Source: Candidatus Parcubacteria bacterium
GTDB lineage: Bacteria; Patescibacteriota; Patescibacteriia; PEXW01
NCBI GenBank assembly: GCA_003597955.1
Contig: QZJU01000012.1
Coordinates: 1-49,939 of the forward strand
Direction: 5' to 3'
DNA: 49,939 bases
A program made the translations under genes and the position numbers. This document shows, piece by piece, positions 10,496 through 49,864 of the stretch; positions within the stretch are counted from its first letter, which is position 1; every line of letters starts with the position of its first letter. The notes beneath the pieces were generated by a model, which saw nothing but the letters and a program-made list of their open reading frames with translations, did no database searches and was not told the DNA's origin.

Positions 10496-12247
10496 TCACT
10501 TCTTCATTTTTATCCGTTCAATCAAATCTTTCAAGAATTCGAGTTTAGCCATAACCTTGAGCGCTTTTTTGCCCCGAATCCGAATCATCAGCTTCCCGGT
10601 ATTTTTTTCCTTTTCGCCAATCACCAGGATGTAGGGGACTTTTTGTTTTTCCGCCGCGCGGATTTTGTAGCCAACGGTTTCATTATCGCCATAAAGCTCC
10701 ACTCGGATTTGAGACCGAAGGAATTCCTGGAAAAGTTTTTTGGCAAAAGACTTGTGCGCCTTGCCGACCGGAATAATCGCCACTTGGACGGGCGAGAGCC
10801 AGAGCGGGAATGCGCCGGCGTAGTGCTCAATCAGAAAAGCAATGGTTCTTTCCAAGCAGCCGATGGAAGCCCGGTGAATAACGATTGGTTCGCGCTCTTT
10901 GCCGCGATTGTCAATGTAGCGCAGGTTAAAGCGCTTTGGCATAACAAAGTCGTATTGCACGGTAAAAGCGGTTTCTTCCTGGCCGTTGATTTTTTTGACT
11001 TGCACATCAATTTTCGGGCCGTAAAAAGCCGCCTCGGCTGGCGCCTCATAGAACGGCGCCTTGGTTTTTTTCAGGATTTTTCGTAAAACATTTTCCGCGT
11101 ATTCCCAGGCTCTGTCGTCTTTATAATATTTTTTTTGATCCTGCCGATCGCCTAAAGACAGGCGATAGCGGTAATCCAAGCCTTTTTTCAAACCCAAGAT
11201 TTTATTGCTTGAATCTATAAATCTTAAAACATTTTCAATCTCCTTTTCTACTTGGTCAGCCGTGCAAAAAATATGGGCGTCCACCAGAGTGAACATTCTC
11301 ACACGCATTAAGCCGGTCAGTTCGCCGCTTTTTTCATAGCGGAATTGGGGGGAAATTTCCGCATAACGCAAAGGCAATTCCTTGTAGCTGCGAGGCCGGC
11401 TGGCGAAAAGCATAAAATGGTGCGGGCAGGTCATGGGCCGCAAGATCAGCTCTTCTTCATCCACGCGCATCGGCGGGTACATTGTGTCTTTGTAATACGG
11501 ATAATGCCCCGAGGTTTTATACAGCTCGGTTTTAGCCAAAGGCGGAGTAAAAACATGTTGGTAGCCGCGTTTGACTTCTTCATCAACAATAAATCTTTCC
11601 AGCTCGCGCCGGATCACGCTGCCTTTGGGCGTGAGCAAGGGCAGGCCCTTGCCCACCAATTCGGAAAATGCGAATAAATCTAGATTTTGGCCTAAAATTC
11701 GGTGGTCTCTTTTCTTCGCCTCGGCTTGCTGGGCTAAGTAAGCACCCAGGATTTTTTTGTTTTCAAATGCCACCCCGTAAATACGAGTCAGCATTTTATT
11801 TTTTTCGCTGCCGCGCCAATATGCGCCCGCCAAGTGCGTTAATCGAAAACCGTCCGCAGGAATTTCCTTAGTGGAGATGACATGCGGACCCGAACAGAGA
11901 TCCAGGAATTGGCCACTTTCGTAAAAAGTGATGGGTTTTTTTGCCTTTTCAAGTTCCGTCACCAGTTCAAGCTTGAATTTTTGTCGACCAAGCAGGTTTC
12001 GGGCTTCGGCAGGAGTCTTGTTCAGTTGGCGAAAGCTTAAATTTTGGCTGATCAGTCTTTTAATATGTTTTTCTAACTTTGGCAAATCTGTTTCGGAGAT
12101 TTTTTCCGGCAGGTCAAAGTCGTAATAAAAGCCGTTTTCAATAACCGGACCTATACCCAATTTTGCTTGCGGGAATTTTTCTAAAACCGCCATTGCCAGC
12201 AGATGGGAAAGCGAGTGTCGAATTTTATGCAGTTGTTCAGTGGTCAT
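10496..12247 (-). CDS. thrS: Threonyl-tRNA synthetase (without TGS domain)
   Basis: 583 residues against about 640 in E. coli. The N-terminal TGS domain is missing and the protein opens directly in the second additional (editing) domain with HSLSHLLA (HxxxH) and DLCSGPH, so post-transfer editing is probably retained. The class II catalytic domain follows, with the MTCPHHF zinc/active-site segment, LPLRYAEISPQFRYE (motif 2) and VIHRASIGCLERTIAFLIEHYAGAF near motif 3 (split here only in description), then the anticodon-binding domain. There is no ribosome-binding site at the ATG. The gene is preceded by a T-box-like leader with its own promoter, so it is probably induced when tRNA-Thr is uncharged. 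Confidence 0.95.
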   Translation of the reverse strand: MTTEQLHKIRHSLSHLLAMAVLEKFPQAKLGIGPVIENGFYYDFDLPEKISETDLPKLEKHIKRLISQNLSFRQLNKTPAEARNLLGRQKFKLELVTELEKAKKPITFYESGQFLDLCSGPHVISTKEIPADGFRLTHLAGAYWRGSEKNKMLTRIYGVAFENKKILGAYLAQQAEAKKRDHRILGQNLDLFAFSELVGKGLPLLTPKGSVIRRELERFIVDEEVKRGYQHVFTPPLAKTELYKTSGHYPYYKDTMYPPMRVDEEELILRPMTCPHHFMLFASRPRSYKELPLRYAEISPQFRYEKSGELTGLMRVRMFTLVDAHIFCTADQVEKEIENVLRFIDSSNKILGLKKGLDYRYRLSLGDRQDQKKYYKDDRAWEYAENVLRKILKKTKAPFYEAPAEAAFYGPKIDVQVKKINGQEETAFTVQYDFVMPKRFNLRYIDNRGKEREPIVIHRASIGCLERTIAFLIEHYAGAFPLWLSPVQVAIIPVGKAHKSFAKKLFQEFLRSQIRVELYGDNETVGYKIRAAEKQKVPYILVIGEKEKNTGKLMIRIRGKKALKVMAKLEFLKDLIERIKMKK

Positions 12248-12260
12248 ATATTTAGATTAT

Positions 12261-12465
12261 AAAATAAACCCAAAGTTTTCGCTTTGGGGTCCAGTTTTGT
12301 CAGGCTTTATTAGTAGGCTGATTGTTTGGACGGTTCCACCCAATTTTCTCTGCCTTTTTGGGCAAAGACGCTTTTTCGCCTTCGGAATTAGACCGAAAAT
12401 CAAGAACAGTTTCCCCAGAAATCATTTTGGGGAAGGATGGTTGGTAGCCATCCCAATTTTCCGTT
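12261..12465 (-). promoter_or_regulatory. T-box-like threonine riboswitch upstream of thrS
   Basis: Read on the minus strand. A hairpin GGATGG/CCATCC (12453-12448 with 12440-12435) shows ACC, a Thr codon, in its loop (12445-12443) followed by a purine. Hairpins follow at 12434-12411, 12397-12381 and 12368-12347. The antiterminator matches the canonical form: TTGGG (12343-12339), the 7-nt bulge TGGAACC, GTCC (12331-12328), then GGAC (12292-12289) and CCCAA (12288-12284). The competing terminator CCCAAAG/CTTTGGG with TTTATTTT uses the same CCCAA. The TGGA bulge fits a tRNA ending UCCA, and both tRNA-Thr genes in this window have discriminator U. Stem I is very short compared with classical T-boxes. 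Confidence 0.8.
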
Positions 12466-12470
12466 TTCAA

Positions 12471-12499
12471 ACTATACCGTAAACTCGCGGTTCTGGCAA
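12471..12499 (-). promoter_or_regulatory. Promoter of the thrS leader
   Basis: TTGCCA (12499-12494), exactly 17 nt, then TATAGT (12476-12471); each box matches consensus at five of six positions. Transcription would begin a few nt before the specifier hairpin. Confidence 0.7.
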
Positions 12500-48618: not shown

Positions 48619-48623
48619 TCTAC

Positions 48624-48646
48624 GCCGATGTAGCTCAGCTGGTAGA
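48624..48646 (+). pseudogene. 5' fragment of a tRNA-Thr gene
   Basis: The first 23 nt of a tRNA (GCCGATGTAGCTC... through the D-loop) break off at GGTAGA and continue into unrelated sequence. It shares TACGCC upstream context with the other copies at 48833 and 49001. Confidence 0.7.
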
Positions 48647-48667
48647 CCTGCTCGCCTGTCGCCGGGC

Positions 48668-48742
48668 GCCGGGATAGCTCAGTGGTAGAGCAACTGTTTT
48701 GTAAACAGTAGGTCGGAGGTTCGAATCCTCTTCCCGGCTCCA
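48668..48742 (+). tRNA. tRNA-Thr(UGU)
   Basis: 75 nt including encoded CCA. Acceptor GCCGGGA/TCCCGGC, D-arm AGCTC...GAGC, anticodon stem ACTGT/ACAGT with loop TTTGTAA (anticodon TGT, reading ACA), T-arm GGAGG-TTCGAAT-CCTC, discriminator T. Its flanks can pair with each other (CGCCTG...GGCAGGCG). Confidence 0.93.
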
Positions 48743-48832
48743 GGCGATCGGCAGGCGGGGCAACTGTTTTGCCTCCCTTGGGGGATGCCCCGGAAGGGCA
48801 ACTCCGGGTTGTTTAAAAAATTGTTTACATAC

Positions 48833-48870
48833 GCCGATGTAGCTCAGCTGGTAGAGCAACTCCATGGTAA
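48833..48870 (+). pseudogene. 5' half of a tRNA-Thr(GGU) gene
   Basis: 38 nt from the acceptor through the anticodon loop (ACTCC, loop ATGGTAA), then unrelated sequence with no 3' half. Its loop shows the uninterrupted GGU anticodon that the intron splits in the copy at 49001. The nearby 48750-48830 region also has gcaactgttttg and gcaactcc scraps of anticodon arms. Confidence 0.75.
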
Positions 48871-49000
48871 TAAACAGGTCCCCGGCAAAAGAGACAAAAT
48901 CAGCTAACCACAGCCAAGAATCACCGCGAAATGCCATGAGATGGACCTACTCCATCCCAAAGTGGGCCGCGGGCTTCTCAAAAATCATCGTGTACCGTAC

Positions 49001-49273
49001 GCCGTTGTAGCTCAGTTGGTAGAGCAACTCCATGGTGGGCCGCACGCCCCGCCCACGGCCAGGGAAACCTGGTCGTGAATCCCGAATGACGGTCAAAGTC
49101 CGGCAACCCGGATCAGACCGTGGCGCTATCTCAAGCGCCCGAACGACTGACAAGGGGAGCTAACCCCGAAAGGGAAGCTCAAGATACAGTCTAGCCCGCT
49201 TATAGGCTACAAGCCGAAGAAGCGGTGTAAGCGAAGGAGTAGGTCGCCGGTTCAATTCCGGCCAACGGCTCCA
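49001..49273 (+). tRNA. tRNA-Thr(GGU) interrupted by a group I intron
   Basis: 5' exon 49001-49036 (acceptor GCCGTTG, D-arm, ACTCC, loop ATGGT) and 3' exon 49234-49273 (AA, GGAGT, variable loop, T-arm GCCGG-TTCAATT-CCGGC, acceptor CAACGGC, discriminator T, CCA). Joined, they form a 76-nt cloverleaf with full pairing and anticodon GGU (codons ACC/ACU). The split is directly after U36 of the anticodon loop. Confidence 0.92.
49037..49233 (+). ncRNA. 197-nt group I intron in the tRNA-Thr anticodon loop
   Basis: The intron follows U and ends in G, as group I introns do. A 9-bp hairpin with a GAAA tetraloop (about 49058-49079, P2-like), the AAGATACAGTC segment (3' strand of P7, near 49182-49192) with CGACTG upstream as its partner, and a TAGCC/GGCTA hairpin (P9-like) are visible. 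Size and organisation resemble the small tRNA introns of the IC3 type. There is no homing endonuclease ORF. I could not resolve P1/IGS pairing by eye. Confidence 0.85.
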
Positions 49274-49307: not shown

Positions 49308-49321
49308 CTAATCCCACACCT

Positions 49322-49864
49322 ATGGACATTTCAACCGCACTTGATAAGTTCTGTGATTATTCTCAGTTCATGCGGGGATATTCGCGAGATACTATAAAAC
49401 GCTATCGAGGGACTGTGCGATTGCTTCAGCGGTTCCTACACGTCCGCCAGCTCGAAGAATGCACCGAGTCTAGGGTTCGAGAGTTCTTTTATCACGGCAG
49501 GCAAGTTCAGCATTGGGCACCGAATTCATTCATTACATACCACAAGTCGCTCGCTGTCTTTTTCAGGTGGTGTGTCGACCAAGGCTACATGCACACAAAT
49601 CCAACCGACGACATGGAAATGCCCAAGACCGAAAAGAAGCTGCCGCCAAAGCTGACCAAGCAGGAGGCCTTAAAGCTACTGGAGATCGTTTACAATTATC
49701 CGTATCCGTACACCTACCAGCGATACCGGAACTATGCGATCTTTGCCACCTTCGTGTATGCGGGATTGCGGAAGAGCGAATTATTGCGCCTCAAAATGGT
49801 CGATGTCGATCTTGCGAATCAATCCATCTATATTCATCAGGGTGTACTGACCCCCATATACTAG
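49322..49864 (+). pseudogene. Tyrosine recombinase (Xer/phage integrase type), cut off by the IS
   Basis: The N-terminal SAM-like core-binding domain (FMRGYSRDTIKRYRGTVRLL...) and the beginning of the catalytic domain, with the first catalytic Arg in YAGLRKSELLRLK, are present. Native sequence stops at about 49842; the last residues (VLTPIY) and the stop come from the element terminus, so the HxxR and Tyr motifs are missing. The ATG at 49322 is preferred over an upstream TTG at 49295, which lies in the terminator. It lies just after the tRNA cluster, a usual position for an integrase of a tRNA-targeted element. Confidence 0.85.

Follow-up and report, generated by a model that had tools for sequence, protein, structure and literature searches.

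Upstream of thrS, on the minus strand of the window (the whole 49,939-nt stretch of Candidatus Parcubacteria DNA analysed here), lies a leader that runs from position 12499 to 12261, shortly before the thrS start at 12247. The original prediction had described this leader as a T-box riboswitch, and its promoter, ACC hairpin, antiterminator and terminator were each found in place on the minus strand. The features of the locus, with counts taken from 53 distinct related leaders, are as follows.

12499-12494 and 12476-12471, minus strand: sigma-70-type promoter read directly from the sequence, TTGCCA and TATAGT with a 17-nt spacer
12459-12463, minus strand: 5′ strand of the enclosing helix P1, CGGAA, which pairs with TTCCG (12387-12383); P1 covaries across the family
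12454-12458, minus strand: junction AAUUG (GAUUG in 49 of 53 leaders)
12435-12453, minus strand: specifier hairpin GGATGG-CTACCAA-CCATCC, the equivalent of Stem I (97% paired in 53 leaders, 54% when shuffled)
12443-12445, minus strand: specifier ACC, a Thr codon, within the 7-nt apical loop
12411-12434, minus strand: hairpin A of the predicted four-way junction (segment folded in 53 leaders)
12392-12410, minus strand: hairpin B of the predicted four-way junction (segment folded in 53 leaders)
12388-12391, minus strand: CUAA, a conserved junction element
12383-12387, minus strand: 3′ strand of P1, TTCCG, the partner of CGGAA
12369-12376, minus strand: purine string AAAAAGCG, 5′ of Stem III (RRGxG in 51 of 53 leaders)
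12347-12368, minus strand: Stem III hairpin (with AA after it in 52 of 53 leaders)
12339-12343, minus strand: 5′ strand of antiterminator helix A1, TTGGG
12332-12338, minus strand: T-box bulge UGGAACC (53 of 53 leaders), in which UGGA is complementary to the 3′ UCCA of tRNA-Thr
12328-12331, minus strand: 5′ strand of antiterminator helix A2, GTCC
12284-12292, minus strand: 3′ strands of the antiterminator, GGAC and CCCAA (9 of 9 pairs)
12261-12288, minus strand: intrinsic terminator CCCAAAG-CGAAAA-CTTTGGG-TTTATTTT, with a stem of -9.3 kcal/mol and a T-run; CCCAA is common to the antiterminator
10496-12247, minus strand: thrS, threonyl-tRNA synthetase (TIGR00418, 637.5 bits, cutoff 384)

The antiterminator has a layout of 5 bp, the UGGAACC bulge and 4 bp, with the terminator competing for the same strand. 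The 3′ strand of A1 can pair in the antiterminator of the related leaders examined and, in most of them, also in a downstream terminator. The conserved purine string and the AA that flank Stem III agree with the T-box motif RRRxG - Stem III - AA (PMC7583486), and none of the 53 leaders lacked the UGGA bulge. The A2 pair next to the bulge has been described as a G-U steric sensor in known T-boxes (PMC7583486); it is G-U in 33 of the 53 leaders and G-C in the window leader, which is a point against the assignment. An 18-bit match to Yfr10 over the terminator was far under the cutoff of that model and was dismissed.

Two tRNA-Thr genes had also been noted in the window, and both were confirmed, each with U before CCA and hence complementary to UGGA.

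48668-48742, plus strand: tRNA-Thr(UGU), discriminator U
49001-49273, plus strand: tRNA-Thr(GGU), discriminator U; exons 49001-49036 and 49234-49273, intron 49037-49233

The reader of ACC, tRNA-Thr(GGU), is thus encoded in the window but is split by a 197-nt intron, which follows immediately on the anticodon (last base U36) and has G as its last base. When spliced after U36, the gene folds as a complete tRNA-Thr(ggt), and ARAGORN, with its own splice point, labelled it tRNA-Arg(gcg). Because the intron splits the gene, default scans of the genome with Rfam, ARAGORN and the tRNA model showed no tRNA-Thr(GGU); a weak partial tRNA match was present at 49001-49060, and a pattern search of the same genome found no unsplit copy. 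An unsplit tRNA-Thr(GGU) with U73 is present in the same-family genome G003. The tRNA-Thr genes of the genome are UGU and GGU in the window and CGU on contig C10, all three with U73. An Rfam scan of the intron returned no group I match; the intron strands CGACUGA and AAGAUACAGUCU resemble group I core strands, suggesting an intron of group I type. Near the intact genes lie two degenerate tRNA-Thr-like sequences that correspond to 5′ halves of such genes (48622-48660 and 48830-48880, plus strand), and downstream of them is a XerC-like tyrosine recombinase (49319-49861), ended by an in-frame stop or by the contig end. The combination of tRNA-Thr halves and recombinase suggests a possible integration site.

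Two computational checks had been proposed with the original prediction, a search with the Rfam T-box covariance model and an alignment of related thrS leaders for compensatory changes. In the first, the leader was barely detected, scoring 16.1 bits with RF00230, whose gathering score is 93 (E 0.22 over the 451 bases scanned), so that standard annotation would miss it. A third RF00230 match in the genome (10.2 bits) was dismissed as noise. The search for related leaders drew on ThrS homologues in 57 relatives and in named GTDB genomes; among the latter, the nearest ThrS was that of Candidatus Buchananbacteria (62% identity). UGGAACC after a G-rich A1 strand occurred in about 20 patescibacterial thrS upstream regions, usually together with a hairpin carrying ACCAA. 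A covariance model, R1, was then trained on 14 thrS leaders from Patescibacteria, which biases it towards leaders of this gene; it recovered leaders outside the training set at 81.9, 47.7, 35.7 and 32.5 bits.

In a sample of 286 genomes evenly drawn from the class of the window and mostly metagenome-assembled, R1 had a match at E<=0.01 in 151, among them 132 of the 242 good-quality genomes, and 83 among the matches listed exceeded 60 bits. Among the roughly 50 best matches inspected, thrS lay downstream in all but one, about four-fifths of the time within about 200 nt; in the exception, L230, the downstream sequence retrieved was too short to tell whether thrS follows. These results, with the TIGR00418 score, uphold thrS as the target gene, and the occurrence of related leaders in the same class supports a patescibacterial host. 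In a phylum-wide sample 56 of 380 genomes matched, most of them weakly and outside the class, and the top R1 score among 22 named control genomes outside Patescibacteria was 26.7 bits. Presence is patchy, G003 having thrS and no R1 match. The original prediction had called a T-box in such a genome unexpected; its assignment to Patescibacteria stands, but leaders of this kind are common across the class, not an isolated curiosity. Our literature search on T-boxes in Patescibacteria/Candidate Phyla Radiation, including Parcubacteria and Saccharibacteria, found no paper, with partial coverage that leaves an earlier description possible.

The second check revealed compensatory changes in two helices. 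The 53 leaders share one order of elements in the 5′ domain: the P1 5′ strand, GAUUG, the specifier hairpin, two tandem hairpins, C[UC]AA and the P1 3′ strand. The specifier hairpin consists of 6 bp and a 7-nt anticodon-like loop, YNACCAA, most commonly CUACCAA; ACC was partly a selection criterion for this set, and unfiltered strong matches likewise show ACC. The 97% of cells in which its pairs were kept compares with a maximum of 61% for shuffled partners. For P1, 83% of cells were paired against 56% when shuffled (maximum 68%), in a test limited to the 24 leaders that contain C[UC]AA only once because MAFFT alone misaligns the P1 3′ strand in some leaders; in these 24, the 3′ strand was not picked by pairing. 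When both helices were counted separately from these tests, 90.6% of cells were paired, compared with 57.3% for shuffled and at most 43.3% for slid partners. All 12 pairs of P1 and the specifier hairpin showed changes on both sides, and their covariation score was 0.96 against 0.27 when shuffled, with none of 500 shuffles reaching 0.96 and slid alignments giving at most 0.19; the covariation counts refer to joined blocks (P1, junction, hairpin, CUAA and P1′) that exclude the variable insert. The sequence that joins the specifier hairpin to CUAA folded into two adjacent hairpins in 35 of the 53 leaders and into one in 18. Thus, the 5′ domain is predicted to fold as a four-way junction in which P1 encloses the specifier hairpin and two further hairpins. 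The very short Stem I of the original prediction corresponds to the 6-bp specifier hairpin, but that description understated the domain and did not mention its enclosing helix. Two thrS leaders, L039 and L058, are shorter still, with about 110 nt from the 5′ hairpin to the antiterminator end; both have ACC in the apical loop, and the P1 four-way junction was not seen in them.

The bulge, the purine string, the competing antiterminator and terminator, and the covariation among thrS leaders support the T-box identity of the leader. Published T-boxes comprise at least four classes (PMC10482949). By its core features the leader belongs to the T-box superfamily, its discriminator domain being common to all of them, and judged from its sequence it appears to fit none of the four as described. 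With class I (the Bacillus subtilis tyrS/thrS type, RF00230) it has in common the terminator/antiterminator, the UGGN bulge, the Stem III purine string and a downstream aminoacyl-tRNA synthetase gene. In contrast to class I, it has neither the long Stem I nor the internal specifier loop, the distal double T-loop motif was not seen, and its RF00230 score falls short of the cutoff. Class II (glyQS) is also transcriptional and has the same discriminator domain, but is specific for glycine and combines a long Stem I with a single-stranded linker, whereas the present leader is a compact junction for threonine.

The closest resemblance is to class III, exemplified by ileS of Nocardia farcinica and Mycobacterium tuberculosis, which likewise has a short Stem I lacking the double T-loop motif, an apical specifier and the same discriminator domain. 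The leader could accordingly be an ordinary actinobacterial ileS-like T-box in which P1 and hairpins A and B are the Stem II and Stem IIA/B pseudoknot in disguise; its short Stem I and the apical placement of its specifier loop are both typical of class III (PMC10482949). We consider this unlikely. The loop has 7 nt in this leader and in nearly all its relatives, rather than 5 or 6, and a covarying helix surrounds Stem I together with two extra hairpins, where class III has the Stem II S-turn and the Stem IIA/B pseudoknot, neither of which was found by eye. The leader also ends in a terminator and precedes thrS in Patescibacteria, whereas class III control is mostly translational and the class is actinobacterial. 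The short-Stem-I (translational) model of TBDB was run on Actinobacteria genomes and on class I matches with truncated Stem I (PMC7778990). Overall, the leader family probably represents a further T-box architecture past the four published classes, with a cloverleaf-like decoding domain for thrS in much of the class and with other T-boxes of the phylum lying under the Rfam threshold.

A cloverleaf-like junction with an anticodon-like loop also raises the possibility that the leader senses a signal other than charging, for example ThrRS binding the four-way junction as a tRNA mimic. There is a precedent in the thrS operator of E. coli, a tRNA-like mRNA leader that mimics tRNA-Thr, binds ThrRS and represses translation, giving autoregulation. 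Both thrS leaders have tRNA-like features, but only the patescibacterial one has a T-box bulge and antiterminator, which the E. coli operator lacks; moreover, the loop holds the codon ACC rather than a Thr anticodon, and the purine string and terminator are likewise T-box parts. This makes ThrRS sensing very improbable. Chance resemblance, or decay of the leader in this genome to a functionless remnant, might be read from the very low Rfam score and from the G003 thrS with no R1 match, but two helices with compensatory changes throughout, an invariant bulge and linkage to thrS across dozens of genera exclude chance for the family as a whole, and the intact promoter and terminator speak against decay in the window leader, so that we give this reading hardly any weight.

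We are highly confident that the leader is a transcriptional T-box riboswitch of compact architecture in which uncharged tRNA-Thr would turn thrS on; the earlier observation holds and extends beyond what was claimed. Sequence and structure lead us to infer how the leader would bind tRNA, tell charged from uncharged tRNA and control thrS. The nascent leader would form the four-way junction and display ACC in its 7-nt anticodon-like loop, where it would pair with the GGU anticodon of tRNA-Thr. If this tRNA is uncharged, its 3′ UCCA would pair with UGGA of the bulge and stabilise A1/A2 over the terminator, allowing RNA polymerase to enter thrS. When threonine is abundant, the 3′ end of Thr-tRNA-Thr could not insert, CCCAA would join the terminator and thrS would be turned off.

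Other T-boxes were also found in the class. RF00230 matched 120 of the 286 genomes at E<=0.001 and only 6 above its cutoff, indicating that most T-boxes in the class escape notice at the Rfam threshold. With specifiers read by eye, these include glyS (GGC, UGGA), valS (GUC, UGGU), aspS (GAC or AAC, mostly UGGC) and argG (CGC, UGGU), as well as a His-type T-box (CAC, UGGG) 5′ of uridine-phosphorylase-like genes. The bulge base mostly tracks the amino acid: A for Gly, U for Val, mostly C for Asp and G for His. One His-type T-box is in the window's own genome (L001:1501-1750, minus strand, equal to C7:31586-31835); it is of the classic type and, at 88.7 bits, near the cutoff. In this T-box and in L243, UGGG matches C73 of tRNA-His and a PNP_UDP_1 gene lies downstream; CAC and UGGG with a uridine-phosphorylase-like gene also occur in G044. 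The apical loop of the aspS leaders carries AAC, an Asn codon, in L249, L253, L254, L258 and L262 and GAC, an Asp codon, in L252 and L261; the bulge is UGGU in L253 and L258 and UGGC in the others. The AAC type possibly senses tRNA-Asn charged via a non-discriminating AspRS. Seven glyS leaders (L195, L203, L201, L205, L207, L211 and L232) are short T-boxes whose apical loop, 6 to 9 nt long, carries GGC and whose bulge is UGGA, several of them with K-turn-like GAUGA...GGAG flanks, and would constitute a second compact type in the class.

Patescibacteria are considered to rely strongly on other cells for their amino acids, and to our knowledge little is known about how they sense amino acid supply. 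If our reading is correct, a tRNA-charging sensor at thrS, with those at glyS, aspS and valS in relatives, would fill that role. In the compact domain, a different RNA scaffold would present a codon to tRNA, perhaps with two anticodon-like hairpins touching loop to loop, and the compact thrS T-box would bear on the spread of T-boxes beyond Gram-positive lineages.
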